The notes under the pieces: model-generated | What the model was told of the DNA's origin: nothing | Database searches by the model: none | What the model saw: only the letters and a program-made list of their open reading frames with translations | Part shown: positions 1,253-61,495 of the stretch, one piece after another | Layout of the letters: each line of letters starts with the position of its first letter | How positions within the stretch are numbered: position 1 is the first letter of the stretch | Position numbers and translations under genes: made by a program | Source: Apostichopus japonicus | Taxonomy: Eukaryota; Echinodermata; Holothuroidea; Aspidochirotida; Stichopodidae | Direction: 5' to 3' | DNA length: 64,000 nt | Assembly: GCF_037975245.1 (NCBI RefSeq) | Contig: NC_092570.1 | Span: 18,205,918 to 18,269,917, forward strand

Positions 1253-4200
1253 GTGAGTAGGTTTAACCCTTACGAATATTCATAATATTAGTCATATGAG
1301 TCACATGAGATGGGAAGGAGAGACAGTGGTATGGGGAAAGAGTGGACTTCAAAATCAAATGATGATCTTGTAACCGAGGTGAGTACAGTAGGTTTAACCC
1401 TTACGAATATTCATAATATTAGTCATGTGAGTCACATGAGACAGGGAGCAGTGACAGTGGTATGGGGAAAGAGTGGACTTCCAAATCAAATGATGATCTT
1501 GTAACCGAGGTGAGTACAGTAGGTTTAACCCTTACGAATATTCATAATATTAGTCATGTGAGTCACATGAAGCAGTGACAGTAGTATGGGGAAAGAGTGG
1601 ACTTCAAAATCAAATGATGATCTTGTAACCGAGGTGAGTAGCTTTAACTGTCACGATTATTCATAATATTAGTCATGTGAGTCACATGAGACTGGAAGCA
1701 GTGACAGTGGGATGGTGAAAGAGTGGACTTCAAAATCAAATGATGATCTTGTAACCGAGGTGAGTAGCTTTAACTGTCACGAATATTCATAATATTAGTC
1801 ATGTGAGTCACATGAGATGGGAAGTAGTGACAGTGGTATGGGGAAAGAGTGGAATTCAAAATCAAATGATGATCTTGTAACCGAGGTGAGTACAGTAGGT
1901 TTAACCCTTACGAATATTCATAATATTAGTCATGTGAGTCACATGAGATGGTTGGTATGGGAAAAAGATTTCAAATCATGGTCTTGCAACCGAGGAGAGT
2001 TTCCTTAAATTTGATGAATATTCATTTCATAATAATATACTGTAAGTTACGTCATGTGAGTCAAATGAGATGGGAAGCAGAGACATTTGGTATGGGGAAA
2101 GACTGGAATTAAAAGTCAACTTATGATCTTGTAACTGAGGGTTAGTATTTTGAAGTATTATGAAAATTGATTATGTATGATAAGGTAGGTTGATTATGTA
2201 TGATAAGTATGCATAGTTCAACTTTCACTTGTGCCACTTGATGTCAGGATTTCATTTGAAATAGGTCAAATCAGTTATTAAGTTTAATTTTCACTTTCAT
2301 CACTCAAATGCTTAAGATGATCTAGGTACTATAAACGTTAGTACTTTTCATTAGTCAAATGATAACCTAATGGATGTTTGTTTTGTCACTGTGAATATGC
2401 ATGATATAATTCAGTTTGTCGTACCTGGGATCATCCGATGCAAATTAACAGTTCTGTTAATTTGCATCGGATGATCCCAGGTACGACAAACTGAATTATT
2501 TTATCAGTTAAATTATAACCCTGGGAGGGGGCAGAGTCAATTTCTTTCACTATGAATATTCATAATATAAATTGCAAATTTTGCTTTGGATGTTTTCAGT
2601 GACTATAATCGTTTATCTCTTTTATTAGTCAATTAATGAACTGTTACTATAGTAACACATATTATAAGTATTCTCAGCACTTGTTATTAATGTTCAGTGT
2701 GTACTCACAGGTCAATTAATGACATAATATCGGTTGAGATATAATTACATCTGCATTGTAACTTCCTTCCGGTTGAAATTAATGAATAGTGATCGAGAGG
2801 TTAATCCCATCTGACGTACGACAAAATAGTCAATAATATTTCAGGACTCGACACTTCCCATTCCAATTATGTCTGTTACCTGTTTGTGCATACTGTGATT
2901 GTTTAACCTTGTGTGTTAAGGCATGCTGTCAATGCAGTATTGAGGTTCTGTTTCAACTTTTATATCACTGCAGCTCATTCCAGAGGCAAGGAAAGGTACG
3001 CTGTCATCTGACATGAGTCGATCCGTCTCTCGCCCTCAGTCGCTCTGTACCAGACCCCACCTGTACCCTTCATCTGCCCCAATGAGTCCATATAGGACTC
3101 CTTACAACACTAGCAGGGAAGACATCCTTGAGATGAACGATGCCCCACAATCTTTGCCAATGTCTCCACAGTTCAGGAGCGCTGACAACATCATCGATGA
3201 GTCCGGACAGAAAGGAGATGGAGGGGATGTTGTAGAGAGGCCACCGAAGCCGAAACATCGCCCAAAGAGGAGAAGCAGATCGGATTTACCAACAGATTTC
3301 AAAGCTATACTTGCTGAATTGAAGGAAACTTCAACTGAAGGTAAGTGGCAGCAGCCACTGTGTGTTATAGAAAGTACCTGTAAGCGTGTGTGAGTGTGTG
3401 TACTGTAGGAGAAATGTATGTTAATTGTACTGCCATATTTAAAACATGTTGTAAAGAAATATTACTTAGTAAGATATTGAAATGCATGGTTTGGTTGTGC
3501 TTAAAATGTGGCAATTTTAAATAGCAGTAGTTTTAGTCACAATAGTTATTGACAAGGACATGTTTATCCCTGATTTTTATATGTAAAGTACAGTAGTTTA
3601 GGCTAGGTACCACTGCTGTGAATGTGTGGTAGACTAGGCTTGGGTATCATGTATGTGGGTGTGTAGTAGACTAGGCTTAATTACCATGTATGTGGATGTG
3701 CAGTAGACTAGACTTAGGTACCACTGTTGTGAATGTGTGGTAGACTAGGCGTAGGGACTATGTATGTGGATGTGTGGTAGACTAGGTTTAGGCACCATTT
3801 ATGTGGATATGTGGTAGCTAGAATACACTAATATACCATGTATGTGGATGTGTAGTAGACTAGGCTAAGGTACCATGTATGTGGATGTGTGGTAGAATAC
3901 ACAAGTTTAGGTACCATGTATGTGTGGTGGGCTCGGCTTAGGTACCATGTATGTGGTTGTGTGGTACACTAGGCTTACTTACCATGTATGTGGTTGTGCA
4001 GTAGACTAGGCTTAGTTACCACTGTTGTGGATGTGTGGTAGACTAGGCTTAGGTACCATGTATGTGTGGATGTGTGGTAGACAGCTAGGCTTAGGTACCA
4101 TGTATGTGGATGTGTGGTGGCCTAGGCTTAGGTACCATGTATGTGGTTGTGTGGTACACTAGGCTTACTTACCATGTATGTGGTTGTGCAGTAGACTAGG

Positions 4201-41479: not shown

Positions 41480-42190
41480 AGTTGGAATTGAACCAGGGAC
41501 CTTGTGATTGTCAAAAAATTCCTCTACCATTAGACCATTAGGTGGGAAACTATAAAATGAAGCTTTTCAAATACTTAAAGATCCAGTTATTTGGACTTAG
41601 GTTTTTTTTTCAAAACATTTTCTCCCCTGGTCCTCGTCCGATCAGGGAACCTTGTCAGGGGGGAGGGTGTCCGTGCAACTCACCTATTCCGCTTGGGAAC
41701 CTTGTCAGGGGGGAGGGGGGCCGCGCAGCTCACCTATTCCGCTTGGGAACCTTGTCAGGGGGGAGGGGGGCCGCGCAACTCACCTTGTCCGCTTGGGAAT
41801 TCGCCTCACTTGGAAACTTTGGATGGTGATTGCCCAGCCAGGGTTTGAACCGGGAAAATGTAAATTGCTCACGGCACTACCAATCACACCATTTTGGTTC
41901 CCAAGAAATAAACTTTGTTTTTTACCTTTATACTTCCACCTACTCCAAAGAACAGAAAATCAAAATGCTCTAGCTGGACTTGAACCGCAGACATGGAGAT
42001 TGTCTGACACTTAAGTCCAGAGCACTAACCACTGTGCCACTTGAACTGTTGAGAAGTAAAGCTCGTTTCTAATATTTGAACCTCACAATGGAAAGATTAA
42101 AAGAGCAAAAAATCAAAATGCTCAAGATGGGACTTGAACCACGCACATGGAGATTGCAGTCCAGAGCACTAACCACTGCACCACTGTAAT
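41480..42190 (-). repeat. cluster of four tRNA-like units
   Basis: Four minus-strand segments each have a B box: GGTTCAATTCC (41494-41484), GGTTTGAACCC-type (41851-41841), GGTTCAAGTCC (41986-41976), and a fourth at about 42131-42141. A-box-like text lies upstream of each (TGGTCTAATGGTAGAGG, TGATTGGTAGTGC, TGGCACAGTGG). The last two sit in a ~145-bp tandem unit. Acceptor stems are not convincing, so they are pseudo-tRNAs or SINE heads. Confidence 0.65.
41651..41800 (+). repeat. 50-bp tandem repeat, three units
   Basis: CTTGTCAGGGGGGAGGG starts at 41651, 41701 and 41751, an exact 50-base step. GC-rich compared with its surroundings. Confidence 0.95.
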
Positions 42191-42284
42191 TGTTGAGAAA
42201 TAATGCTCGTTTCTAATATTTGAACCTCAGAATGGAATGGTGGAAAAGAGCAAAATATCAAAATGCTCAAGCTGGAACTGTATA

Positions 42285-43138
42285 TGGGGTACATTCATGG
42301 GTATGAGTTATATTAATGTGTATGGGGTGATTTTATGTGTATGGGGTACATTATTGTGTATGGGGTACATTATTGTGTATGGGGTACATTTATGTGTATT
42401 GGGTTCATATATGGGTATCAGGTACATTTATGTGTTTGGGGTACATTAATGTGTAAGGGGTACATTTATGTGTATGGGGTACATTATTGTGTATGGGGTA
42501 CATTTATGTGTATTGAGTTCATATATGGGTATTAGGTACATTCATGTATATGGGGTACGTTCGTGTGTATGTGGTACATTAATGTGTAAGGGGTACATTT
42601 ATGGGTATGGGGTACAGTACTGTATATGGGGTAATTTTATGTGTATTGGGTACATTGATGTGTAAAGGGGTTCATTTATGGGTATGAATTTCATTAATGA
42701 ACATGGGGTGATTTTTTGTGTATGGGGTACATTAATATGTATGGTGTACGTGTATGTGTATTGGTTACATCTACGTGTATGGGGTACATTTTTGTGTTTT
42801 AGGTACATTTATGTGATTGGGTTCATTTTTGGGTATGAGGTACATTAATGTATATGGGGTGATTTTATGTGTATGGGGTACATTTATGGGTATGAGGTAC
42901 ATTCATGTATATGGGGTGATATTATTTGTACGGGGATACATTTATGTGTATGGGTACATCACTGTGTACGGGGTACATTCATGTGTAAGGGGTACATTTA
43001 TGGGTATGGGATACATTATTGTACATGGGGTGATTTTATGTGTATTGGGTATATTAATGTGTAAGGGGTACATTAATGTTTATGGGGTGATTTTATGTGT
43101 ATGGGGTACATTAATGTTTATGGGGTACATTAACTCAA
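42285..43138 (+). repeat. ~20-bp GTATGGGGTACATT minisatellite
   Basis: About 40 variants of TGTATGGGGTACATTTATG. The open frames here (repeated CMGYIYVYGVH-like text) are translated repeat, not genes. Confidence 0.93.
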
Positions 43139-43785
43139 AATAATAAAGCGAGAGGTAAAAGATTCAATGGTGTTTGTAAGCTTGATGACTTACAGTCTTT
43201 TTTATTGAGTAGATGTTAAACTAGATTATAAACTTACTTCAATGTTGAACAAGAAAGAACTGTTTACATGGCTATTCTATGATACCAATGTTCCACTTGA
43301 CATCTCGGGGATGATAAATACTTGGTAGTGGTGGTACTCAGGTGTGTCAAGGAAACTAATCCATTTGATTGGATTGTTGTCCTGGTCAATGACACACAAA
43401 GCTTGACCTGTTTAACTGACCTTTTGAAGTAGCCAGATCATTTCTTCATCTCAAGCCTTGGTTGTGTTTTTTGATAAAGTAAATTATTCTAAGTTTTGGT
43501 GGTCACAAGAAGCCGTAATAGAATGACTGATTTCTGTAAAATAAATACATTATTGAAGTCTCAAAGTTTGTCAAAAGAATTTACTAAATGATATCATATG
43601 ATTCAGCAGGTGGAAAATCATTTTTGTCACAATAATGACCATTAATTATTTACTCAAATTGGGGACATGTTTCTATGAAGCATTGAACTTGAGTTAAATA
43701 TATCTCTAAACTAAATTAAATGTCAGAGACTTGAGCAAGTTGCATTAAGCAAAACATCACCTGTCACCATATTACAGAATCTCCA

Positions 43786-44166
43786 CAAGCATACTCCCAG
43801 AACACACAAGCATACTCTCAGAACACACAAGCATACTCTCAGAACAACACAAGCATACTCTCACAACATACAAGCATACTCTCAGAACAACACAAGCATA
43901 CTCTCAGAACACACAAGCATACTCTCAGAACACACAAGCATACTCTCAGAACACACGAGCATACTCTCAGAACACACAAGCATACTCTCAGAACACACCA
44001 GCATACTCTCAGAACACACAAGCATACTCTCAGAACACACAAGCATACTCTCAGAACACACAAGCATACTCTCACAACAACACAAGCATACTCTCAGAAC
44101 AACACAAGCATACTCTCAGAACACACAATCACACTCTCAGAACACACCAGCATACTCTCAGAACAA
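43786..44166. repeat. ~21-bp CACAAGCATACTCTCAGAA minisatellite
   Basis: About 17 head-to-tail units. Minus-strand frames through it (VCLCVLR / SMLVCSE repeats) are artefacts. Confidence 0.93.
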
Positions 44167-44401
44167 ATAAGGTTGTTGGTTCATAGCAAGAAACCAACTG
44201 GATCCTAGGACTGAGGAATGGAGCTATTTCACCTGCTATCTTGTTCTAATAAGGTTCCAGTTTTTCAATTTCAAATTTATTTCTCATACAATTGTACAAG
44301 AATATTACAAAAATAACATTACAGTAGGAAGATTACTATACAAAGGCCACCAGAAATACCTAATAGCTTAATATCTCAGCTAGTGACCAAGTAGACCAGT
44401 T

Positions 44402-44760
44402 AATAATAATAATAATACATAATTTTTATATAGCGCCAAACAAACTATGAAATCATTCTCGTAGCGCTTAACATAATAATAACAATTATAACATATATGC
44501 TTTGGTGAAAAGATACGTTTTGAGAGCTGATTTGAAACCGTTCACAGTATTGCACATTTTTACATGTTCTGGAAGTGAGTTCCACAGGCACGGTGCACTG
44601 GATGCGAACATTCTCAAGCCGTAAGTCTGTGTTTTTACTCTAGGGATGAGTAACATCAGCGATGAATTAGAGCGAAGTGAGCGTGTGGATGATGGTCGGA
44701 GCTGAAACAAGTTGGTGAGGTAGCTTGGTCCTACATTGTGCATACATTTGAACACAATTC
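44402..44760 (-). mobile_element. L2-type LINE 3' end, truncated
   Basis: Minus-strand frame 44755-44486 encodes the C-terminal end typical of L2/CR1-type reverse-transcriptase proteins: HNVGPSYLTNLF, a PRVKTQTYG block, SAPCLWNSLPEHVK and FKSALKTYLF, then a stop. The 3' tail TTTGGCGCTATATAAA and an ATT-repeat end follow at about 44440-44402. The 5' part is missing. The element lies just beyond the COG6 3' array. Confidence 0.87.
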
Positions 44761-44793
44761 AGTCCTACTACTTATCTCAGGACATGTGCCCTG

Positions 44794-45482
44794 TTGTGTT
44801 GTTCTAAGCCACATCTCAATTGGATGCTATGACTAATCTCAGAACAGAAACTCTTGACCCGTTGCTGTGTTTTAAGCATGATACCAGTTGGACCCTAATC
44901 TCAGGCCAGAAGACTCTTGACCTGTTGTGGCGTTCTAACCATGACACCAGTTGGACCCTAGGACTAATCTCAGAACAGAAACTCTTGACCTGTTGCTGTG
45001 TTTTAAGCATGATACCAGTTGGACCCTAATCTCAGGCCAGAAGACTCTTGACCTGTTGTGGTGTTCTAACCATGATACCAGTTGGACCCTAGGACTAATC
45101 TCAGGACAGAAACTCTTGACCTGTTGTGGTGTACTAACCATGACATCAGTTGGACCCTAGGACTAATCTCAGGACAGAAACTCTTGACCCGTTGCTGTGT
45201 TTTAAGCATAACACCAGTTGGACCCTAGGACTAATCTCAGGACAGAAACTCTTGACCTGTTGTGGTGTACTAACCATGACACCAGTTGGACCCTAGGACT
45301 AATATCAGGACAGAAAGTCATGACCCGTTGCTGTGTTTTAAGCATAACACCAGTTGGACCCTAGGACTAATCTCAGGACAGAAACTCTTGACCTGTTGTG
45401 GTGTTCTAACCATGACATCATTTGGACCCTAAACTCAGGACAGAAGACTCTTAACCTGTTGTGGTGTCCTAACCATCATACT
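44794..45482 (-). repeat. 63-68-bp tandem array derived from the COG6 terminal exon
   Basis: About ten units in two alternating types: GTTGTGGTGTTCTAACCATG and GTTGCTGTGTTTTAAGCAT, each followed by a CCAGTTGGACCCTAG block. Read on the minus strand, the unit carries the COG6 end TPQQVKS. The unit nearest the gene (45482-45435) is the real coding end with stop. Later units mostly lack one base and read FCPEISPRVQLV instead. Confidence 0.93.
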
Positions 45483-45582
45483 GTTTGTTTCCTGGTATTG
45501 GTTTATTGGGTTTTGAATAGCTGTATACATCAATTCATAAGCTCCATGGATAAGGCTCATAGCTCTTTGGTGGATTTTCTCC
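45435..45582 (-). CDS. COG6: COG6 exon 18 (C-terminus and stop)
   Basis: A long pyrimidine tract precedes the acceptor ATTTTAG, and TGA is at 45437-45435. It encodes [18 protein letters not shown] and the conserved end [10 protein letters not shown]. The last ~48 bases are the founder of the downstream array. Confidence 0.96.
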
Positions 45583-48500
45583 CTAAAATTGAAGAAGAAA
45601 AAATAAAATAATAATAATTCACATTGCAAAGGAATAAGAATTCCAGTATTCACAATTTAAAGTACACAGGCATATCCAAACAACTCCATCAATTACTTCT
45701 AACTAAAAGAGTGCATTGCACAACAGAACAAATCAAGATATTGAGTTAGCAAACATGCAATGCCAATGTGGTTATGTAACTATTCAGTATTTCCTGATAA
45801 ATATGCTACAATGTCCTATGATGGTCGCTTATTGTCAAACTTGAGATGTTTTCTACCTCTACCCTCGGAGCATATCTCCTCATCTGAGATAATTAATTGT
45901 CCAACTGAACGCTCCTCAAATGACTTGAAATACCATCTAAAGGTCAAATCCTCCAGGAAGGTTTGTAGTTGTAGCAACTCGAAACATTTTGGCAGTTTTA
46001 GGTTTTTTTTTTTAGCAATTTGAAAAGACTTTAAAAAAAATATATAACAAAATCGAGCTCAAACACACTAATTAACAACTACCGACCTATAGCAATTTGA
46101 GGAAGCTAAAAAACTTGGGGCTATGGACCTCTCATGCAGAGTTTGTTCTTACCTTACAGCTGTGCTTTGGATAAACTCACACTGGGGCAGAACGTAGTTG
46201 TCCGGTGTTGACAAAAAGCTGTCAAAGTGATTCTGTAACGAGAAAGGATTAAACTTAAGAAGGGTTGGAGGCATGCTTGCCAAATGAACATTGCCTTATA
46301 AACACTAAAAAATATAATTATTTGAAAGACATAAATGAATTTCCTACTCCTCATTTTTTTTGTATTAGATGTTGTGATCAAATTATGGACAACCTGATTC
46401 ATTTCTTAGGAGATTTTGGGATGATAAGTATTTTTTTAAATTATGATAAGCATTTCCTGTTCCTTCTTCTGATGGACCTGGTAAAGATCAACAGTTGAGA
46501 ATGTTGTGGAAGTTTACAAAATAATAACTATCATACACTAATTGCAAATTGTATTTTCAAGTTTACATCTACAATCTCCCAACCTTCAATTCAAGTTATA
46601 AACATGAATATATACATATTTAGATTGTAGGGTTGGTGTTCACTAGACCTCAGGGTTTGTGTTTACATTTCAACCTCGGGCTGGAAGTTTACGTTTATAT
46701 TTAGACCGTAGGGTTGGTGTTCATATTTCAACATCGGGCTGACTATTCACATTTAAACCTTGGGCTGGGTGTTCACATTTAATCCTCGTGGTGGGTGTTC
46801 ACACTTGAACCTCAGGTCAGTGTTTACACGTAGATTTCGTGGTGGGTGTTTACATTAGACCTCGGGCCTGGTATTTACATTTAGACCATGTGATACGAGA
46901 AGGACCTTGCAGATTCAAACATTAATAGATTTATCTGGTTAATCACTGCTTACAGAAAAATCCTGCAAAATACACAAAGTGTTCACATGGAAAGAAGGTA
47001 CTTCAACACATCACCATAGAATGGTTCATTGACAGCAAATCAAACTGACTCGATCCATCTCTGCCACAATACACAAGTTTGCACCACTTAACAATAGGGT
47101 GACCCTCCTTTTTGCTTGGGACTTTACAAAGGGTAACAGAGTGAAAGTAACAACATTCCACTTGTTTACTTGCTATCCTAGCCACATCCTAGCCACATAT
47201 TCAAGTTCACTTAATCGTTTTTCCCAATTTTTACCTCTTCTACCTCTTTTCTTCATCTTTATTTAATTTATAATATTCTATAGCTCTAATCCGAGAATGT
47301 AACCTCAACATTTTAAATTCAGCAGAAATACTACAGCACCGAAAACTTTGCTCTAAAAACCAAATCATTGCCAAAGTTTCTCAAAAATAAAAAGTCTTTC
47401 TTACCATGCCATCCTTGATAGCACTTGTGTTCATTCCTGGTAAGGATGCTAGAGGCCCCTACGGACAACAATAATGATAATGAAAATTATGATACCATTA
47501 AAGATATGTGTTTAATATTGTATCATGTCAACTTTACATGTCACACTCAGGGAAGCATCCAAACCTTTATTTCTGTGAAGTTTGGTTTGTCAGGATCTGT
47601 TGACAAGCCAATCTATCTAGTTAACAGCACAGGGGGCTCAAATAAAAGCAAAAGGAATAGCAGGAAATAATTTGATCTGGTTGGCATTGCAAAATGCTAC
47701 CCAATATGTGCAAGATCACAGTTTATACACAATATTTTATACGAGAAAGTTCTTTAGTGAGTACTTTAGTCTCCAAAAGCATGAGTACAAGTAGGTTATC
47801 TTCCTTAGTGTCTGTACCAGATTTGAATATACTATGTGTGTCCACCCTCATGGGATTCTGAATTAGCAGTAGAAACACACAGAACATTCATATTACCTCA
47901 TATACTATGTGTGTACACCCTACTGGGATTCTGAATTAGCAGTAGAAACACACAGAACATTCATATTACCTCATATACTATGTGTGTCCACCCTCATGGG
48001 ATTCTGAATTAGCAGCAGAAACACACAGAACATTCATATTACCTCATATACTATGTGTGTACACCCTACTGGGATTCTGAATTAGCAGTAGAAACACACA
48101 GAACATTCATATTACCTCATATACTATGTGTGTACACCCTACTGGGATTCTAAATTAGCAGCAGAAACACACAGAACATTCATATTACCTCATATACTAT
48201 GTGTGTCCACCCTACTGGGATTCTGAATTAGCAGTAGAAACACACAGAACATTCATATTACCTCATATACTATGTGTGTACACCCTACTGGGATTCTAAA
48301 TTAGCAGCAGAAAAACACACAGAACATTCATATTACCTCATATACTATGTGTGTACACCCTACTGGGATTCTGAATTAGCAGTAGAAACACACAGAACAT
48401 TCATATTACCTCATATGCTATGTATGCCCACCCTACTGGGATTCTGAATTAGCAGCAGAAACACACACAGAACATTCATAGTACCTCATATACTATGTGT

Positions 48501-51500
48501 GTCCACCCTCATGGGATTCTGAATTAGCAGCAGAAACACACAGAACATTCATATTACCTCATATACTATGTGTGTCCACCCTACTGGGATTCTGAATTAG
48601 CAGTAGAAACACACAGAACATTCATATTACCTCATATACTATGTGTGTACACCCTACTGGGATTCTAAATTAGCAGCAGAAAAACACACAGAACATTCAT
48701 ATTACCTCATATACTATGTGTGTACACCCTACTGGGATTCTAAATTAGTAGCAGAAAAACACACAGAACATTCATATTACCTCATATACTATGTGTGCCC
48801 ACCCTAATGGGATTCTGAATTAGCAGCAGAAACACACAGAACATTCATATTACCTCATATACTATGTGTGTACACCCTACTGGGATTCTAAATTAGCAGC
48901 AGAAACACAGAACATTCATATTCACTTATATACTATGTGTGCCCACCCTCATGGGATTCTAATTAGCAGCAGAAACACACAAAACATTCTCTAGGTGAAT
49001 TCCCTCCTTTAATCTTTGCGTCCACCCTCATGGGATTCTAAATTAGCAGCTGTAACACAGAACATTCTCTAGGTAAATTCCCTTATACACTCTTTTGATT
49101 CTTCAAAAGCATACATAGATGTTATCATTACCTCTTCTGGGTTGTGTTGTAGTATGATGCTATATACTTGTAGTAGGGCTGTTCGTGATAAAATGAAAGA
49201 CGCTTGCTCGTTTACTAATGTATCCAAGTGAGCATCCGTCTGTGGAAACAAAAATAAAGACATGTTTTTTTTATCTGCACACAGGCCAGTACATATTTGT
49301 TTTAACTGAAACAAGAGCAGCTCAAAAAGCTAAAATCTGTATGAAAACAGGACAAGGCTCATTCCCTAAACAAGAATGATGAACTCCCAATGTGACACAC
49401 AACGTAACTCCCATATTAGAGAAAAACATTGCACTATGTTAGTTGGAAACCTCAATATTTTGTCTCAAAGTCGAGATGTGGTTGATTAAATGTTATCTAT
49501 TTCAAAAGGCTATAACGATTCTTTTTAATCCAGGAAGTGCAGAACAGGAGGTGTCAGTGATGTCATCAGGGCACAAGTTGTTCAAAATGTTGAGATGATA
49601 ATCTTCTTGTCGATGTGGTACATTCGGAACGTTTGCTAATTTTGGTTTATAATGTCCTCAAAACTTTCATTACAATGCAACTTTTGTAGTGGGGTGGATA
49701 CATGCTTTGGATGTTAAAAAGAAGAAGTAAAACATTTCCAGATATATTTCAATGAGATCATTCACACTGTTTCTGTCAGGTGGTGGTTTTCACAAACATC
49801 ACCAAAGTGGCCACATTCGTATTTTCATCTATGAAGTGCTATGATTTGACTTAACAACACAAACATCTCCATTAATTTTGTTGAGCAATCAACTTAAGCA
49901 ACTGAAATAACCCTTCCAGTTTAATACCAGTGTTTAAGAGATCGTTAAATATGATCATAAATTACAAACTTGCAAATAACAGACTGTCACAAGTGGATCG
50001 AACTGAGCAATATATTTCTTTTCAATATTTTCAGGTCACATATTTCATGCTACATTCAAAATTAGCACATTTGAACATTTACACAAATGTCAATGAGCAT
50101 TGAAACAATTTTGACACAGACCGACTGTCAAAACTAGTAACATGATTATCATTATCTGGACATACCTGAGCCTCTAACATCTCCAGACGTTGGTCCGTGT
50201 ATTCATACAAGGATAGTGTAGTCTGCATGGCATGGAGACAGTTTATCATGTAGGTGGCCATATCTGCAGGGTTGAGACGGCTAGCCGATAACGTACACAT
50301 CTGCATCAGCGGATCCAGGACAGAAGTTAGTATCTACAGTAAAAATTGAAATTACATCAACTGAAATTTTATCTTAGGCGTGAGCTGATTGGCTGATTGA
50401 TAATATTGTCAAGTTTATATTAGGTCTAATCAGAATGGTTAGTTAAACATACTGTGCACATACAACATAACATACATACATAACATAACATACATACATA
50501 ACATACATACATAACATACATAACATGCATAACATACTGTACACATATGCTTCAGAGAGTCCAGAACCCAACCTGCAGACCGGTCTTTCACAAAATAATC
50601 GGTATAAGATTCAGACCAAATAGGTAAAATTTGGTTAAATCCAACCAAAACAACATTGTGATATAAAAAGTTAGATTTGACTTTTACATGTCACCTCTGA
50701 AATAACATAGGCCATGTATAGTAACTATTGCACTAAAGTTAGCACTGCAATCACCTAATGGATTTTCTCCATGTTTCTACGGCAAGTAGAAACATACACA
50801 TGCTTCATATCCGATCGCAATTTAGAAAACAAATTGGGAATCAATTATTGCCGGGAGATTAGTACATGAAATTGTGAGAGCATAAGATTGCCTAAAAAAC
50901 TGGGAAATCCATCCCGAGTTAAACCAGGAGAGTTGTCATGTGTGAAGACCAGTATTATCTACAGGCAATGATAAGAAACGAATCATTGAAAGTAATGTTA
51001 TGTCTCATTGGCTGGCTGATAATCTTCACGTATAGTATAGCTTAGCTGATTGGTCAGTTGATATATTGTACACATCTACATCAGACGATCCAGAACAGAT
51101 GTTATGGAAAATACAGAAAATCATATTAAGAACTTACATCAACTGATATCTTAGGTTGTCCAACCTGCATACATGTCAACTCTCATGGATTTATGGTAAG
51201 ACGCAGTCAGTTTTATGTATCATCGCAGCATGGGATCTACAAATCTCACACGGGAATAGCTCACACAGGGTAAGGCACCATAAAACAGATTTTCATGGCT
51301 TTGTGGATATTTTAATGTTAGAACAATGACTTATTCTACTTGAGTACAGTTTGTTAAATCTGCAGGGCTTCAGGCACCATCTCGAGGGTGACCTTTGGAA
51401 CCTTTGGCCAACCTTTGGAAGGTTCAGACCTGCTAGGCAAGTTGATACTATTCATAGCAAGGCTATATAAAGTTGGAATCTTGATTGGTTGGTTGACATC

Positions 51501-53851
51501 TCATACTACACATTGGCTTCAGAGGTTACTTCATGCTGACGACTTGTTATGCCTGCTAAATTACAAAATCCTTTATAAATTGCTGTGTTTAAACTTCTTT
51601 CTCTTTACACTGGTTTTAACAGATACAAATATTCATTAATGGTCATGTACACTATTACACTAGAGAAAGATAACAATCTTACTCTTGCAAAATCCTGTTC
51701 TCTCAAGTTCATGCTGACCACTGATGAATCATGAGAAGCGAGTACTTCCTGAAGCAGCCGGAGAGATTGTGAGAGTGTTGCTGTCGGACCGAGGTCGGCT
51801 GGCGGTAGCTCCACTTTCTCCACCAGTTTGGATGCAAGGACATTGAGAGCGTTAAAGAACACCTTCTGAGCAAACTCCTCCATCTCGGAGAGAGTGCTGG
51901 TCAATGCAGCCTCTTTGTTTAAATGTTGACTGGACAAATGGAGAGAGGAGAGAAAAGTAAGAAAATTTCTTTTTGTCTTTATATTCATAAACACATAGAA
52001 AGCATATAGAGATTACTAATGTATTTTATATTCTCCTGCAAGCAGGAACTTGCGAATATATTCCTGTACATTCTACTGTTTCCTACAGTTTCCTTCAGCT
52101 GTTAAGTTATATTGAAAACCTGATCACTGACTGGGTTGTACAGATTAGGGCTGGAGGTTTTCTCAATATGACTGATATATCTCTCCCAAAGTGAGGTGTT
52201 CTGTATATTACTTCCATGCTACCTCTTTGGATTTTATCTCATGGTTTGTAACAAAGGTGTACAAACATATTTAAAACTTGCAGCAGTACGAGGATTTGCA
52301 GGATATCAAAATTATGAAAGGATGGGTATGGGATCGGGGTTATTCAGGAATTGGATGAAAGATTTTGGAATAATCCAAGGGTTACACATAAATTACATAA
52401 AACTGGAACAAGTGCTACAAAAGTTAAGAATGCTCTCATATGTGGTGCCAACATGTGTGTACTTACCCTATAGTATATTTATAAAATTTCAATAAATTTG
52501 CAAGCTTGTAGAGAACTACAGGACCCGGTTCTGCTACTATAACCTGTTCCACTCTAACCTAAAGGAGAGAAAAATAAAGAGTTATGCAAGTTTAGTAGAC
52601 AAACTACAAATACTGCACAAAGGGACAAATTACAAATACTGCACTGAGGCTGTAAACTAGATTATGAAAAAAGCATACAATACACTAATCTGATTTAATA
52701 GCAAGTATCAAAGTTACAAGCTTAAGAAGGAAATAACAAAAAGAATGTAGTGCTATATGTCTTAATGACTCACACCTAAATATAGTGCTCCAGGTGATTG
52801 AGGAGAGGTGGAAATATCATGATATGAACAAATATGTGAAGAATGAACTTATCGTAATCATTTGTACCTTGAAAGGTCTGCAAATTCCTTCTGTAATATG
52901 GCCCAATACCTCTTCAATTTTACTGTCTCTTGCTGTGGAGGGAAGAGACAATAAATTCTTGTAAACCTCAACAGACCCAGAAATGAAGTAAACAAATTGA
53001 AATGATAGTATTCATTTCCTCTTTTGAAATTTCCGTTTTGTATATACACCAAAAGGTAGGTTTGATGCGAAAAAGTAGTTTGCATGAAACAACATCAACC
53101 TCATTTTTACAGCTCAATCACAATAAAACACAAACCTCATTTTACAGCTCAATCACAATAAAACACAAACCTCATTTTACAGGCCAATCACAATAAACCA
53201 CATACCTCAATTCACAGCTCAATCACAGTAATACACCAACCTCACTTTACGATTCCAATAGAAATTTGTTTTGAATCTAAAGGAGCATTTCAAAACCTAT
53301 TTAGACATAAAATACACAAAAGAAACTGGCAAACACTACAAATTTTCCTTCCAATACTCACGTTGACCTGTAGCCATGCGTAAGAGGCTGACCAATTGTT
53401 CCTTCTCGGTTGCAGACGCTTGATGCAGCCAAGCCAACATATCCCCCACATATCGCAAAGGATCATGGGAATGCAGCTCTATTGGTCTAGGTGTGCCACC
53501 AGGTCCTGCAGAGAAAACCGAACAATTTAAAAGGATCTCACAAAATATTATCTAAGCGCACATTTTGAGAGAGACGTCTTACTCAAAACTGAAAGAGTAA
53601 ATAAAGAATGAACCACTAGTATCCACAATCAAGAATGGTATTGTATTCGTAGTATTTTGTCATTCTGTGAAAAGTGAGAATAACGAAATGCTTCAAAAAA
53701 TGATCTGTGATGACCAAAATGAACTTCGACCTCAAGTTCCTGGATACCCCAAGTTAAGAACTACTCATTAGTATTTATAAGTAGTTAGTATTAAGTTTAG
53801 TGAGTGTCTATGTTTAAATTGTGGACAATACAGATTTCTAGAGAGACAGAG

Positions 53852-53896
<45 letters not shown>

Positions 53897-56800
53897 GGTA
53901 ATTATATGTCAAGTTCACTCAGGCAAATCTGAGTCACAAAATGATCCCACTCAAATCCAAGTCACGACTCCAGTCGCCAAAACTATTGCCTAAGCAGGCT
54001 TTCTGCAGTACATGAGCAATTTGTAAACCCAGGTTTGCTATATTTCATTTGAAAATCTTTGATGAAAAAGTCATGATTAAGCACAAGCCCATTACCTCCT
54101 CTCGTTAAAGCATCAATAAATCCTCTTACAACAGCTGTCCTTCTAGCGGTGCCAAACTCGTCCAGGACATATCTGACAATAAATTAAAAATATGTCTGTA
54201 AAAGTTTGTCGCCAAGACACTTGTCTTATAGATATTAACATCAATCAACAATCTAACTGCAAATGTTAAAATACTTTTCATTACTTGATTATTTGATATG
54301 AAAATTTGACTTGACAAAATTAATTCACAATTTTTGAATGACAAATTTCTGAAATATCACGCAGGAACCTACATAAAAAGTTGTGAAGACTCGCGCATAA
54401 AGAAACGTCTCATGCCGGTAATCTGACATAGTTTCAAATGAGGTGTAACAGAAGTGTTAGACACCACCATCGATCCCTGAAAATACACACACAGCTTGCT
54501 ACCGTCGGTGATTAGACATTAGTGTACAGTCAATACATACAGCTATGGTCAATACCCACAACACAGTGTACATAGCAGCGATGAACATCTCAGGTCTAGA
54601 TAAATGATAGCAAGGTATCACCTTTCATTACTGTCTGCATTTTGTAGCGACAAGAAGAAAACTTCACTTGCAAGCAACGGAAAGTTAACTTTTTCAGAGG
54701 GCGGCAGGCGGTTTGGGCGAGTCTTCAATGCCTTTAAGCCTTCAGTATTAAGAAGTAAGGACCATGTGCTGACCTGAAGAGTACTGGTCTGTCTTGCAAT
54801 GCTTCCATTGCCCTGCAATGAATAGACGTTACATCCACAGAGTCACTTGTCAGGCTTCGACACTCTCCTAGCACGAAAGACAAACATTCACAAAATGATT
54901 AATTCATCACATCATAACTTGTATATACATATTGATAGAAATAAACAGAATGGCAGGTGATCTGCATTCTGAACAATGACTAAATGTTAAGCCATTTAAG
55001 ATCTCTTAAAGTCTGGCTAACATAAAACCAGAAAGAATTAAAAATAATGACAAAAGTTAGAGATTAATTCTTTGTCAAACTGGACAATGGCACTAACTAA
55101 ATACTACAATATAGTTGGTAAAATATTCAGAAAAAGAAAGGGGTGGTTTGGGGCTTACTACTTTCAGTTACTGAATGTTAATATTTCAACCCCGTTCTAA
55201 TAATTTATCTGACTTGGCATATATTCATTGTCACAAAAGTATAGTATGACACACATATATCTGTGTTTGCTGTAAAGTTTCTTTAACTAGTTAGCAATAG
55301 ACAAGGGTTTGACATTAGGTAGAATTGTAACTTAGCAAAGGGTGACCTTTATGATAAACTTAGGAATTAAGGTGTACGAAGCACTAATCAATTGATAAAG
55401 CCTGACATCAGCACTACCTTACTAGTATGACACATATCTGTGATTGCTGTAAAGTTTCTTTAACTAGTTAGCAATAGAGAAGTGGTGGACAGTTTTACCA
55501 ACCTAAGAATTGTTTTATATTACAATAATAGGTTAATTAGCTCTAATTGTAATGCTCTATGGTTGTGAAATTTGGCAAAAAATTGCATGGCTTTTGTGAT
55601 TGCTAGAGGTGTTTTAGAGCTATTCATGACAATGACATTTATATTTCTCATGGGATTGTTAAAGTAAACATATTTTAGTCTGGGTGTCTAACATTCCTTA
55701 CATTATGTTGTTGTGTTATTTGTACATCACATTGTTCAGTCTCTGAACTGAAAAACCTTGCAAACAAATAGCAATACTTAATAGCCGCAGCCTACCACAC
55801 ATTCGTACCGGTTGTCACGGTGCCTAGCCTAATTTGCATATATATTGAGCTTGCCAGCAACATTGTATTGCCAGGAAGAATGATGATCTAATTTCTTATA
55901 AAGTGACATTATATCTCATCTTGATCTGAGTATCACACTCAAAAGGATGATTCCTTTGCTTACCTTGTGTCCAGCGATAAAGACGTTCGTAAGCTGTCTC
56001 CTGGTGAAGTGCCATTGACTCCATGATTTCAAGTCTGAAATGAAAGAATCTTATATTGTTCACTTTTGAATATATATACTTCCAAAATTCAGTTTCATAA
56101 AACTAAATTTCAACAATTAAATTCCAGTCATCAACAATAATGATGCACTTGCAAAATGTTGGCTGGAGAAAATGATGAAGTTTGATACACAGCACAAAAT
56201 AACTTTACTGGTTTAGACATACATTTTGTCTATACATCAAAATTGTAAGGTTGGAAGGGTAGCTCTGTTCACAGAACAAGAGATTATGCTGTACCAGCAT
56301 TGTTCTTTAGTACACAACACAGCAGGCTCGATGGGTTTATTCTTGATATTTGATCTAATAGAAACATGTCACATAATTCCTCTTAAAGCAACTGCTCTGC
56401 ACTTACCCTGCTGTTTGCTGATTGGTCCTTAAGAGTACCTTACAGTCGCTGTGGATCTGTTTGACTCGGTTTAGTGCATTGAAAAAATTCTGCAGATATT
56501 AAAGAAATAGACCTTTGTTTAGTATAATGGAAATGAAAGTAGTGTTGATGAGTGGGCAATGATTACTAGCTAAAATCCATGAAAATGGACCAAAGGTGCC
56601 GATACAAAGTTTGTCGAAAAAAATATTGATATTTAAGATAGGAAATGTGAACAGAAATTTTTTAAGTAAAGACCTCCTAGTTAGAACTCCTTTTACAAAA
56701 CAAAAATCTTTTGTATCTATTAAACTGTGAACATTCCTAAAAATGTTACCTCATGCAGATGGCCTTCTCGTGTTCCTCTTAAGACTTTAGCCTCTTCTGA

Positions 56801-59800
56801 TTTCAGCTGATATTTGGCAAGGAATGCATCTGCAACTTTGGCCCTCATGTCCAACTTGTGACTGAAAAAAAAAAAATCAAAGTTAACATTCATGGATTAA
56901 ACAAAATTTCATCAACATGACTCACATATGACAACAGTTGCAAAATAAGGCAAGAAATGATAGCTAACATCGTTAAAAGTTGGTGAAATATATCATCGAA
57001 TCAATAATTTCAGTGATACACAAAGACTGGTCTTTCATTTGATTGTTACATGATTTTCTACCTTTCTTTTTGTAAATCTGTTGTTTTGTTGATTAGGTCA
57101 GCGGTTTGGTTCCTGGCAGCCTAGGATAAAAAAGAGAGTCAAGAATTGATAATTCCAACCTGATTGAGGTTAGGTTTAATAGTGAGCACTGTTAGTCCCT
57201 TCATCTAGTGTTCTGACATGTACAATATTCCCCAAACATATTCCAGCCACGGAAATATCAGTTTACATATGCAATTTCCCATCTACTGTATCTTATGTGT
57301 GAGCACTGTGTCAGTAAGTATAAACCTCTTCCAGGACACAGCCAGGATCTCCTTCCAAATCGACACAAGTTAACTACACATGTGTATTTCTTCAGACTTT
57401 TTCATCCATGATTTTCAACTTCTCTTTAGCATTGGTGATGATCTATTTGAACCTATTTTGTCTTTAACAAGATTTCCTTCACAATGTTAAATCCTCTTGA
57501 CTTTCCATACGCATTCTTGTATGAGTTTGATCTCCATGTAAGCCCCTCACTTGCTATTAGTTTGTACAGGTATTGGCTTTGCCATATTGCCCGTTTATTA
57601 ATGCATATGTCCATATGTCATGGCTGTACTTACATTCACAGTGCTGTATATAATTAATGCTTATATATATATATATATATATGTCATGGCTGTACTTACA
57701 TTCACAGTGCTGTATAATTGGATACTTCTACATTTACTATAGCTAAGGGATCTATAAAGGTGACTAATTTGGTTATAGAGTTCATAACTGTTAATTCCTG
57801 TACTGAAGTTTGGTCTCCCAGAAACTTAAAATGTTAATTAGTTTCATTGTCAAACTTTATACTAAATTTCTTCACTCCTGTTACAAATTTGGTGGACTAA
57901 AAACAGAGATTATGTGTTCAGGTACTGGTATGTACATCAAGTTTAGCAAACATAAACAAATTTTAACATAAACAACTTTGAAGAATAGTACAAGGTGTCA
58001 CCATCAAAAAAGCCTGGCCTGTGGCAACATTATCAAAAATCAAAAGGGGACTTTCCCAGAGAATCTTCAAATCAAGAGCTTGGGATTTGCTACTTCAACA
58101 TTCATTCTATTGGCAAAAAATAGAATTAGAGCTATGACTTTTGGTAATATGAATAATAAATGTAGCAAAATTTAGATAAATTGACCACCTCAAAAATCAT
58201 CATGGTTGATTTTTACATCAATTTTGTTGACCCTTATGACACCTCCCACCCCCCCCCCACCCCCTCTGGCTGTTTCCCAAACATGAATTTTGCATTTCCA
58301 AATAAAACAGACAATACGATAAATAAGATCAGGGGGAAACGTTACTGTAGTTAGAAATTGACAATGTCACCATTACTAAGAAAAACATGATTTAAGCTTT
58401 CAAATCAGGTGGGAAGGGTGTTTCTATTGCATTATTCTGCAAAATTACTAACCTTCAGCCTCCGAACCATATCTTCACAACTATGATTCATTGCCTGTAC
58501 ATCTTGAGTAATACTGTCCAGTTGCTGTTGCAAATGGGAAAGAAAAATACTAAGTCTGTTACTGACTTGTTAAAAAAAAAAGGGAGACTGAAGTTGGCTA
58601 TTCAGTCCACAAATGAAGCACATCTTTTGAAGAAGAGCATACATAGGTACAGCAGCATAAATGGGACCTCAAATGAGAGTCCAAACTTACCCAAGCCCAA
58701 CCATGGTTTGTGGTTGGTTTTGGGAGAGAATTTTACATTTTTTTAGTGGGCTGGTTTAAGTGGATGGGTTTTTTTCCCGGTACTTACCTACCATACCTAA
58801 TCTGTCCATTGGTCATTGGTGGAGTGTTATCTGATTTGGCCCGTAATTTCTGCAAATTTGGCAGATGAAGCCATTAGCATAAGGTGACCAGACGTCCCCG
58901 ATTTTCGGGGACAGTCCCCGATTACAGTGTGCTGTCCCCGAAAATGTCCCCGATTCGTCAAATGTCCAGGAATTTCGAAAATATCCCACATTATTAGTAA
59001 AATAATTGTAAAAACAAAATTTAGTCAAGTGTGCAGTCACAAAACGGAACTAACCAGTATTTCAGGTGGGCCAGTGTAAAGTGGAATATGCTAGATCGAT
59101 CTAGCCTAGCACTCTTTTGTAAAGTAAGTTAATTTCATCTAAGAAAAAGCTACATTTTTGGAAATAAAATTGATTTAAAAGTGCTTCTAAGTGCTCCCCC
59201 ATATCAGTCACGCAATAAATGTCCCTGATTCCAGTCAGGGAAATATGGTCACCTTACATTAGCAACCTCTTAGGATCGTCTCTCAAGGTAGGGGGGTGGG
59301 GGGTTACAGTAGATAAATATTAGACTGAATAGCTTTATTGAGACTGAATGCAGTTTTTCTGGCCAAGCAATGTTTCAAACTGTATTATTAACAACAAATT
59401 CGCAATAAGTTTTATAATTACGGCTTAACAATCAGATAGGTAGGAAGTATTTCTGATTGTGTACACTATTATTGATTGGGAGTACCCACAGACGCTGTAG
59501 CATAGATAGTTCTTCGATAGCCTCTGCTAGACTTTTGAGCACATAAATATTTGTGAGAAAGAGGATTTCCTTTTCTTTTACATTTTGGAATTTATCTTAG
59601 AGCCCTATAGTGGGCAGTCTCCCCACTTCCCCTTTCCCCAGAAGCTATGTACAGTATTACACACCCCCCCCCCCCCTTTCTGATGCCCATGGTCACATTA
59701 TCTGTCACAATGATATCCATCACAACATATTGTGAAGGTGAAGCCTGTTAAGCTACAATGCTACAGGATAACAACAATTATGCTTACACTCTTTACACCA

Positions 59801-60843
59801 CTGAATGCTTCAGCAAATTCCTCACTGATTGATAAACTTCTTCGTTCAATGTCCCCTCTCAAATTTCTCCTCGTTCTTAAATTGTTTTCATGAAAGAAAG
59901 TGGAAAGAGCTTTCAATGCCTCCAGGGTTTCCTAAGAGATAAGAAAGTAAAGGGAATGATTAGTCTTAGAACTTTGTGAAATTTGGATCATTCATGTAGT
60001 AATATAAGGATTCTTACAAAGCTACAGTCAACAGTTTCTGACTTTCTGTTTCAAAATGCTCTCATTGGCTACAGATAAAGGTACTAATTTAGAATCCGTA
60101 CCATTCGACTACCCGACTAACCCCTAACCCTACTTCCTAACCCTTTAATTCATTCCAGCAAATCATTCACGCGATGCACCTATTCACTGACTGTTATTCT
60201 ATTGAGCACACACGTTCAGCCGGATTATACAGTTGTTATTCTGCCGATTCGAAGTAAGCTTTCCCATTCATATGGTACGGATTCTTAAGTTAGGCCCAGA
60301 TAAAAACCAAAGTGACATGCTGGTAGGGCATCAATTGAAAAACAAGGAAATTCTGGATTATCTATGAATGACAGTCTAACACCGGCAACTGGGGTATAGA
60401 CTTACAAATACATTATCATTCATTTAGCTGAATATCTATAACGTCTATATTATTATCCCTAGGCTTGCATAAGCCTTATTTTATCTCTCTTTTACCTAAC
60501 ATAACTTAGACCTAGGCCCAATTTGCAGTAGTTCGTCCTAGCCTAAATTGTAACGCTAGTACCAGTAGTACTAGTAGGCCCTAGGCCTACTCAGTTAGGC
60601 CAAATGTAGCCTAGCCTTCTAAGTTACAATACATTTGCAAATGCAAAGTACCGATTTTGCGACATAAGCCTAACGTAGGGAACACTAACGCATCAACATA
60701 AGCCAAGAGTCAATCAGCCAACCAACCTTGTCATTTTCCAACCTTGTCTCTAATATTTTGTTGAGCTTTCTTGACAACGGATTACTGTTCGCATTTCCCT
60801 CATTAGTTAGCTGAGGCTGAGAGGGGCTCTCTTTATCAGCCAT
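45435..60843 (-). CDS. COG6: COG6, conserved oligomeric Golgi complex subunit 6
   Basis: COG6 is a lobe B subunit of the COG tethering complex, which recycles Golgi glycosylation enzymes in retrograde vesicles. Eighteen exons join from ATG at 60843 to TGA at 45435, all GT-AG and in frame: 644 residues against about 657 in human COG6. Anchors throughout match: [19 protein letters not shown] (21-39), [18 protein letters not shown] (58-75), an N-terminal coiled coil (about 60-170), [11 protein letters not shown] (252-262), [60 protein letters not shown] and the C-terminal [10 protein letters not shown]. There is no signal peptide or membrane segment, as expected for a peripheral Golgi protein. 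Introns carry several minisatellites and two MITEs. Confidence 0.97.
45998..46015 (+). repeat. poly-T tract in COG6 intron 17
   Basis: A T-rich run in the intron between exons 17 and 18; nothing else of note in this intron. Confidence 0.5.
46153..46232 (-). CDS. COG6: COG6 exon 17
   Basis: Acceptor TCGTTACAG and donor GTAAGA; exits in phase 2. It encodes [20 protein letters not shown], matching the family FDRYLSAPDN segment. Confidence 0.92.
46620..46890 (+). repeat. degenerate ~35-bp repeat (GGTGTTCACATTTAGACCT)
   Basis: About eight imperfect units with GGGTTGGTGTTCAC, TTTACATTTAGACC and CTCGGGCTG words. It lies in COG6 intron 16. Confidence 0.8.
47405..47458 (-). CDS. COG6: COG6 exon 16
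   Basis: Acceptor TGTCCGTAG and donor GTAAGA; phase 0 both sides. Only 18 codons ([18 protein letters not shown]), aligned with human GSLANMPNLDSVTLKAAM. It is the only frame-consistent link between exons 15 and 17. Confidence 0.88.
47827..49070. repeat. 73-bp minisatellite, about 16 units
   Basis: The unit runs ATATACTATGTGTGTACACC, GGGATTCTGAATTAGCAGTA, then GAAACACACAGAACATTCAT. It fills most of COG6 intron 15 and ends about 60 bases from the exon 15 donor. Confidence 0.95.
49132..49239 (-). CDS. COG6: COG6 exon 15
   Basis: Acceptor TTTCCACAG and donor GTAATG; phase 0 both sides. It encodes [20 protein letters not shown] and then [15 protein letters not shown]. Confidence 0.96.
50166..50333 (-). 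CDS. COG6: COG6 exon 14
   Basis: Acceptor TACTGTAG and donor GTATGT; phase 0 both sides. It encodes 56 residues including [20 protein letters not shown] and RLEMLEAQ. Its 5' part has decayed copies in intron 13. Confidence 0.96.
50455..50535. repeat. CATAACATA simple repeat
   Basis: An irregular tetranucleotide/pentanucleotide CATA/ACATA tract just 5' of exon 14 in gene sense (intron 13). Confidence 0.85.
51067..51155 (-). pseudogene. decayed copy of COG6 exon 14 start plus intron
   Basis: The text matches the first ~40 coding bases of exon 14 and ~45 bases of its upstream intron in the same order. Shared words are GTACACATCT, GATCCAG, ACAGA, TACATCAACTGA and TATCTTAGG. Read as exon 14, codon CAG has become TAG (51078-51080 region), so it cannot code. 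Weaker copies are near 50539-50567 and 51485-51528. Confidence 0.75.
51683..51929 (-). CDS. COG6: COG6 exon 13
   Basis: Acceptor TTGTCCAG and donor GTAAGA; phase 2 in, phase 0 out. It encodes 82 full codons including [20 protein letters not shown] and [12 protein letters not shown]. Confidence 0.96.
52033..52056 (+). repeat. 24-nt shared hairpin motif, copy B
   Basis: 23 of 24 bases match 23142-23165, in the same orientation, within COG6 intron 12. Confidence 0.6.
52467..52558 (-). CDS. COG6: COG6 exon 12
   Basis: Acceptor CCTTTAG and donor GTAAGT; exits in phase 2. It encodes [20 protein letters not shown] and NLLKFY. Confidence 0.95.
52868..52932 (-). CDS. COG6: COG6 exon 11
   Basis: Acceptor CCTCCACAG and donor GTACAA; phase 1 in, phase 0 out. 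It encodes [17 protein letters not shown]. Confidence 0.94.
53098..53250. repeat. ~36-bp tandem repeat, four units
   Basis: ACCTCATTTTACAGCTCAAT followed by CACAATAAAACACAA is repeated in COG6 intron 10. Each unit contains TTTTACAG. Confidence 0.9.
53362..53505 (-). CDS. COG6: COG6 exon 10
   Basis: Acceptor TCTGCAG and donor GTGAGT; phase 1 in and out. It encodes [20 protein letters not shown] and then [17 protein letters not shown]. Confidence 0.96.
53857..53897. repeat. (GACA)n microsatellite
   Basis: About ten GACA units in COG6 intron 9. Confidence 0.93.
54096..54172 (-). CDS. COG6: COG6 exon 9
   Basis: Acceptor ATTGTCAG and donor GTAATG; phase 2 in, phase 1 out. It encodes [20 protein letters not shown] and ALTRG. 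Confidence 0.95.
54383..54733 (-). mobile_element. piggyBac-like MITE, copy 2
   Basis: Reverse-oriented copy of 33346-33711, similar along its whole length with small indels. TTAA is at 54734-54737 on one side; the other target site has decayed. It lies in COG6 intron 8. Confidence 0.7.
54774..54867 (-). CDS. COG6: COG6 exon 8
   Basis: Acceptor GTGCTAG (an NAGNAG site: GCTAGGAG) and donor GTCAGC; phase 1 in, phase 2 out. It encodes [14 protein letters not shown] and [12 protein letters not shown]. The piggyBac-like MITE begins only about 40 bases after its donor. Confidence 0.92.
55964..56034 (-). CDS. COG6: COG6 exon 7
   Basis: Acceptor CATTTCAG and donor GTAAGC; phase 2 in, phase 1 out. 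It encodes [20 protein letters not shown], one of the most conserved segments. Confidence 0.95.
56407..56489 (-). CDS. COG6: COG6 exon 6
   Basis: Acceptor ATCTGCAG and donor GTAAGT; exits in phase 2. It encodes [13 protein letters not shown] and [11 protein letters not shown]. Confidence 0.95.
56750..56861 (-). CDS. COG6: COG6 exon 5
   Basis: A poly-T tract leads to the acceptor TTTTCAG; the donor is GTAACA. It enters in phase 2 and exits in phase 0. It encodes [16 protein letters not shown] and LRGTREG. Confidence 0.95.
57062..57120 (-). CDS. COG6: COG6 exon 4
   Basis: Acceptor TATCCTAG and donor GTAGAA; exits in phase 2. It encodes [19 protein letters not shown], matching the family coiled coil. 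Confidence 0.93.
57661..57682. repeat. (TA)n between two copies of a 38-bp segment
   Basis: A TA run is flanked by direct copies of ATGTCATGGCTGTACTTACA plus following CTGTATA, a local duplication in COG6 intron 3. Confidence 0.8.
58453..58524 (-). CDS. COG6: COG6 exon 3
   Basis: Acceptor TTGCAACAG and donor GTTAGT; phase 0 in and out. It encodes 24 residues of coiled coil ([17 protein letters not shown]). A second AG 12 bases in (GGACAG) is a possible alternative acceptor. Confidence 0.88.
58880..59256. mobile_element. hAT MITE with perfect 8-bp target duplication
   Basis: The ends TAAGGTGACCA and TGGTCACCTTA are inverted repeats. CATTAGCA is found on both sides (58872-58879 and 59257-59264). 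The interior has GTCCCCGA repeats. It lies in COG6 intron 2 and encodes no transposase. Confidence 0.93.
59788..59931 (-). CDS. COG6: COG6 exon 2
   Basis: Acceptor TCTCTTAG and donor GTAAGC; phase 0 in and out. It encodes residues 40-87, including [12 protein letters not shown] and [12 protein letters not shown]. Confidence 0.95.
60115..60148 (+). repeat. short telomere-like CTAACCC tract
   Basis: Three CTAACCC-type words with interruptions in COG6 intron 1; too short to be more than suggestive. Confidence 0.4.
60727..60843 (-). CDS. COG6: COG6 exon 1 (start)
   Basis: The ATG is at 60843-60841 and the donor GTTGGT follows AAG at 60727. It encodes residues 1-39, ending with the conserved [10 protein letters not shown]. 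The start matches the family N-terminal length. Confidence 0.93.
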
Positions 60844-61495
60844 GGTTTTGAAAGTTAGTGGTCAGTGCAATGTTTACGTGGAATATCTGTGTACAATACA
60901 ACCGGTTTGAAGCTAACATCAATATACAGCACTCAGCGATGCAATTAGTAGCGTACTTTAGAAGTAAAACCTTTACACGATGTTCCATTCCACTTTCACA
61001 TCAAATCGCCAACAGGAGTATCGAGTCTTGGGAAAGTATTCGCAAGACCTTCCCAAACTATATCATCGTAACTGATAGGTTTTTCATTAGTGTAAGACAA
61101 CTTTTTTTCCTTATGCTACTTGAAATGCAACTGTATGTGACCAAGGAGTTGATGTGTCTTTCAAGTTATGTAATACATTATTTATTCGTACAGTATCTTT
61201 ACATTTTCCCTATTTTTTCTTGTTTCTGTTTATTCCAATGGAGTTGTGAAATTCACATGACGTAACAAGGTCATGATCATACCGTCAGTCTCGATGTAAG
61301 GGGAATGGGGTCAGAGTGGAGTCAAGTTGTTTGGTCTTCGTGCCCAGGCTCTGTCCTAAGGTGACTTTCAGTACTCTATTCTTATTACCGTCATGTCCCA
61401 CAGATCTCACCTCGGGGACATAAAACAACACAATTTCAATTTTCGGCCATTAAATATTGCATTGTAACTATAGGCTATGCAACTTACATAGTATA

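Follow-up and report, generated by a model that had tools for sequence, protein, structure and literature searches.

The last codons of COG6 and its stop codon lie inside the first unit of a tandem array, and this arrangement raises the question of which is the older, the coding end or the array, and what the array might mean for the gene. The window, i.e., the whole 64-kb stretch of DNA that was analysed (C10:18205918-18269917), was studied together with searches of the genome assembly, which has 35 contigs and 671,581,487 bases. We consider it highly probable that a segment spanning the COG6 stop was duplicated in tandem as a neutral event with local turnover; the outcome would be a minisatellite, probably located in the 3'UTR, with the functional coding end as its first unit.

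COG6 and the units behind its stop codon

COG6 (conserved oligomeric Golgi complex subunit 6) is a housekeeping gene of Golgi trafficking, and the gene in the window is identified as COG6 by matches over the cut-off to both of its domains. In a Pfam profile search, PF20653 (COG6_C) had seven matches in the genome, all inside the window on the minus strand and five of them over the cut-off. The best of eight matches to PF06419 (COG6_N; 36.9 bits, over the cut-off) lies in the window at the upstream end of the gene; six of the other seven are on other contigs, and one (C8) needs its in-frame neighbours to exceed the cut-off. Our conclusions on COG6 use its last two exons only; the first exon chain was out of frame over long stretches, and small exons were unplaced. 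The terminal exon consists of one split-codon base, 48 whole codons and the stop TGA at 45437-45435, and its acceptor is normal (AG at 45584-45583, cttcaattttag). By itself it stays below the PF20653 cut-off (26.4 bits), with 22.8 bits in one search and 25.3 bits in another over profile positions 414-462 of 462, while exons 14 and 15 joined reach 48.2 bits over positions 390-462, the last of which is also the end of the profile. A search of the PDB with the terminal exon gave a single match, to a STOP axonemal protein (E 1.7).

Behind this exon, TRF reported a tandem array at 44790-45476 (period 68, 10.3 copies, score 869), which, once anchored on the minus strand, resolves into ten full units of 63 or 68 bp (45476-44812, 665 bp in total) and a degenerate eleventh (Table 1). 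Minisatellites are made of head-to-tail units of roughly 10-100 bp that amount to hundreds of bp in total, and the array is one by this definition. The coding part of u1 reads in frame with the exon, and the original prediction, made from the sequence, that the coding end of COG6 is the first of about ten units of 63-68 bp was borne out. As the COG6 reading frame stops at the TGA within u1, only this first unit is predicted to be translated.

Table 1. Coordinates of the COG6 terminal exon, the array units and other repeats in the window
Feature	Position	Strand	Remarks
COG6 terminal exon (148 nt)	45435..45582	-	PF20653 match; joins exon 46232-46153 in frame
u1, founder unit (supported), 63 bp	45414..45476	-	39 nt coding (13 codons) + TGA + 21 nt; in frame with terminal exon
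u2-u6, 68-bp units	45074..45413	-	apparent classes A,B,A,B,A; each minus one base in LLS codons
u7-u9, 63, 68 and 63 bp	44880..45073	-	apparent classes A',B,A'; u7 and u9 closest to u1
u10, 68-bp unit	44812..44879	-	apparent class B; end diverged
u11, degenerate truncated last unit	44760..44811	-	start called at 44811; lower end approximate
Dispersed repeat adjoining array	44401..44758		39 other copies among 40 scored of 287 candidates, 91-97% identity
Second dispersed repeat	44259..44395		39 others among 40 scored of 159 candidates, 77-83% identity
Possible further diverged unit	44172..44212	-	far side of dispersed repeats; suggestive only
126-bp array, about six copies	1171-1948	+	TRF; first unit is the end of an open frame

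The units differ in length and frame. In the 68-bp units (u2-u6, u8 and u10), the LLS codons are short of one base and six extra bases follow the stop, while the two other 63-bp units, u7 and u9, retain the length and frame of the founder, including the in-frame ten-residue peptide. The loss of one base that had been ascribed to most units is therefore found in seven of the nine downstream full units, u7 and u9 being complete. Identity to u1 is 0.889 for u7 and 0.873 for u9, and 0.68-0.81 for the other seven full units. By our reading of the unit alignment, there appear to be three classes, A and B (both 68 bp) and A' (63 bp). Clear alternation is seen between A and B within u2-u5 and between A' and B within u7-u10, with interruptions at u1-u2 and u6-u7; the alternation that had been predicted is real, with three classes instead of two unit types and with these two breaks. 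Mean unit identity is 0.828 at lag 1, 0.894 at lag 2, 0.848 at lag 3, 0.825 at lag 4 and 0.863 at lag 5. The higher identity at lag 2 than at lag 1 partly supports the dimer-wise growth that had been suggested, although the pattern is interrupted.

Tandem arrays are error-prone in assembly, and the array could in principle have been mis-assembled or collapsed. However, the ten full units are mutually different (identity 0.68-0.99), and if the window comes from the published HiFi assembly, as we infer, any read exceeding the 0.7 kb of the array should span it (PMC10344927); an artefact is therefore extremely unlikely.

Age and turnover of the units

The exon tail (45435-45479, 45 nt) scored 70 against the rest of the array, a score that none of 300 shuffles reached (shuffle maximum 24), while the remainder of the exon (45480-45582, the first 103 nt) scored 13, with 289 of 300 shuffles as good. 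Since only the last 42 of the 148 nt of the exon lie in u1 and the first 103 nt are unrelated to the array, it would be the stop-spanning segment that was amplified, and the amplification of the stop-codon exon as such, as first proposed, is not supported. The claim that the coding end is the founder and the array derived fared better. The COG6_C profile is matched to 462 of 462, and removal of the last ten residues lowers the score of the joined exons by 11.5 bits, to 36.7 bits. As the family profile includes the terminal peptide, the coding end would be the source and older part of the array, and it is also for this reason that the founder of this minisatellite can be named; the evidence supports the coding end as founder. 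With the coding end ancestral, the unit form one base shorter would be the derived one.

The opposite order, in which the array is older and the end of COG6 was captured by exonising an existing minisatellite so that the first unit became its last codons, would agree with the first unit belonging to the array by sequence. It is nevertheless very unlikely, as a peptide within the COG6_C profile is older than an array found at a single locus in a single genome, and the one-base loss disrupts the frame in copies only. When the whole array was used as a query across the genome, in a search that skips very common words, the one candidate was the array itself, and no founder unit was found elsewhere unlinked to COG6; such a unit, according to the original prediction, would have counted against it. 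A transposon-derived or satellite array was rejected on the same search, because with very common words skipped the unit was not found at many genomic places.

The non-coding part of the units fits less simply. The 21 non-coding nt of u1 are of a short form common to u7 and u9, while u11 and the possible far unit seem, by our reading, to carry longer TCCTAGG-like forms after the stop, so that the ancestral non-coding length is uncertain; in its non-coding part, u1 itself may have taken part in exchange with the array. The nearest relatives of u1 (u7 and u9) are not its neighbours, which counts against our preferred explanation. Of the codon changes that separate u1 from these units, two of three (u7) and three of four (u9) are synonymous, numbers too small for a test and not the pattern that pure neutrality most favours.

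In the stop-spanning duplication that we favour, a local tandem duplication would have copied a 63-bp segment across the COG6 stop, comprising 13 codons, the TGA and the 21 nt after it. Such a duplication would be invisible to selection, with the extra copies all on the non-coding side, and might have been tolerated, as the first stop would still terminate translation. Slippage or unequal exchange would then have raised the copy number, in part by adding dimers, most units would have lost one base, and dispersed repeats would have come to border the array and supply the first AATAAA. We infer this order of events, their neutrality and transcription through the array from what is observed, namely the anatomy, the conserved peptide, the one locus in the assembly and the unit relationships. 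The array resembles an ordinary local expansion of tandem repeats and is most likely neutral. It suggests why arrays seeded by a coding end extend on the non-coding side only, the first stop or donor being still functional, and it offers a checkable site at which repeat turnover reaches the stop codon of a housekeeping gene.

The gene's own stop codon is now within range of repeat rearrangement, and the array might instead serve as a reservoir of alternative COG6 C-termini, in which exchange or conversion puts another unit first and alleles differ in their last residues. Computed replacements of u1 would add 18-55 residues for seven of the nine units, and u7 or u9 in first place would give the native length with a change of S to A; frames through the array are open for up to 73 codons from stop to stop, and the COG6_C score is still 44.3 bits with a u2-type end, against 48.2 bits with the native end, and 48.2 bits with the u7 end. 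The swap of the natural stop for a longer C-terminus, as originally suggested, is therefore possible on paper, but nothing shows its occurrence. The one assembly examined has the native stop, the frame is lost in seven of the nine downstream units, and a peptide within the family profile argues for the removal of such swaps, so that we regard a reservoir as quite unlikely.

The probable 3'UTR and known systems

The array had been described as running into the 3' flank of COG6. Of eight poly(A) hexamers sought, none starts between the COG6 stop and 44640, hence none in the array, and since none does, the array is probably located in the 3'UTR, with the COG6 mRNA running through it, rather than in flanking DNA. 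Just past u11, two different dispersed repeats adjoin each other (44259-44758). The first, which we take to resemble a 5'-truncated LINE end, contains AGTAAA (44639) and TATAAA (44430), and its open frame had no Pfam match; counting from the COG6 stop, the first AATAAA (44281, minus strand) is inside the second, and the COG6 poly(A) site may thus be transposon-derived. On the far side of these repeats, a stretch resembling a further array unit scored 27 against u2-u3 (shuffle maximum 26, n=300) and 22 against u10-u11 (matched by 8 of 300 shuffles); in a scan of 2292 window tiles one other place scored higher (28) and one was equal, and its assignment to the array is suggestive only.

An array in the probable 3'UTR, with the first AATAAA beyond it in a dispersed repeat, could be regulatory, either through repeated protein- or microRNA-binding sites or by controlling the choice of poly(A) site. 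Such a role is quite unlikely, as structure beyond that of 20 shuffles was not found in the array RNA (z +2.3, none of the 20 being less stable) and arrays are common in the genome.

A minisatellite VNTR is also present in the 3'UTR of the dopamine transporter gene, which is similar to the COG6 array as a minisatellite in the (here probable) 3'UTR of a protein gene; the dopamine transporter repeat is not known to be a copy of a coding end. Minisatellites have reportedly been explained by Taylor and Breden (2000) as born by slipped-strand mispairing at non-contiguous repeats. The COG6 array agrees with that model in that a new array would be born locally from unique sequence; the model predicts short flanking repeats, and the original right flank of the COG6 founder is gone.

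The VNTR in the last exon of CEL (carboxyl ester lipase) consists of 33-bp repeats of 11 residues each, which are translated, and single-base deletions in it were described for MODY8 (PMC8692231). The two systems are alike in having 3'-terminal repeats in a gene, where a single base lost from one unit alters the C-terminal tail, for COG6 on paper, and they are unlike in that CEL repeats are translated while in COG6 only the first unit is, the stop lying inside the unit (PMC8692231). A coding C-terminal VNTR of the CEL type, with several translated units in frame, was accordingly rejected for COG6, whose frame ends in u1. Overlap of human minisatellite VNTRs with exons and UTRs is reported to be widespread, the whole set overlapping 3512 exons, and in the available text of that study the term 'stop codon' occurs 0 times, so that stop-seeded arrays are not singled out by name there (PMC8096271). 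In the titles and abstract openings that were screened, neither an array at COG6 nor one said to be seeded by a stop codon turned up. The closest parallels are 3'UTR VNTRs and the last-exon VNTR of CEL (PMC8692231), from which the COG6 array differs by the stop inside its repeated unit.

Arrays elsewhere in the window and the genome

Array density was sampled in twenty 10-kb pieces (200 kb) from hand-picked places on 20 contigs, one of the pieces being two-thirds N. Arrays with a period of at least 10 cover 12.9% of the samples (8.3% without the all-satellite piece L023) and 11.3% of the window, but the samples are very uneven, with a median of about 4% and values above that of the window in five of 20. 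Arrays of at least 150 bp number 20 per 100 kb in the window and 8 per 100 kb in the samples; the window thus exceeds most samples in its array content. Long satellite stretches were also encountered: all 10,000 bases of L023 and 58% of L024 are tandem repeat.

The 13 window arrays of at least 150 bp were placed at random over the window in 20,000 trials and compared with 16 COG6 exons, i.e., those of the exon chain, with exon 2 shifted by one base, plus 47400-47459, which was read by eye. On average 1.8 arrays fell on COG6 exons, against one observed, and the COG6 stop was covered in 10.2% of trials, a figure that is valid for the window and not for the genome since the window is array-rich. 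The position of the array is by itself therefore unremarkable. In a second run, in which the six arrays starting at 42000 or beyond were randomised within 42000-61000, the mean was 3.0 arrays on an exon against one observed, and one or none occurred in 7.9% of trials; if anything, arrays avoid exons.

The 126-bp array near the edge of the window would be a second case seeded by a coding end, with a geometry like that of the COG6 array. A frame of 427 residues without a Pfam family match, open at the edge of the window, enters its first unit, where a donor-like GAG|GTGAGT is found; GAGGTGAGT is kept in six copies, the first of them at a possible exon end, and the candidates for the coding end are this donor or a stop at 1283-1285. 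In the genome, its sequence has five matches, all within 1171-2140 and in no other place. A further proposal is that the COG6 stop codon belongs to a recombining array, that the population carries alleles whose C-termini are coded by other repeat units (up to 55 extra residues), and that u7 and u9 persist because they preserve the frame and can donate the native end again; more broadly, with two such cases in one 64-kb window, coding ends would be recurrent minisatellite seeds in this genome. We find this proposal quite improbable.

A 73-bp array of about 16 copies lies in a COG6 intron (47827-49095). Seeding of this array by exon 13 was rejected, as it shares only GAGGTAAT with the donor region (score 16, with 124 of 300 shuffles as good), and partial copies of it occur between exon 13 and the array (48990-49131, score 70) and none in the exon. 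Seeding by exon 14 was also rejected (score 14, 166 of 300 shuffles as good), as was a relation of the 35-bp array at 53097-53250 to exons 8 and 9 (83 and 40 of 300 shuffles as good, respectively). Derivation of a 21-bp array downstream of COG6 from the 68-bp unit is not claimed, the one 13-bp match scoring 21 with 9 of 300 shuffles as good. This array has 18 copies at 43784-44165; also downstream of the gene, an array at 42279-43131 consists of 45 copies of a 19-bp unit.
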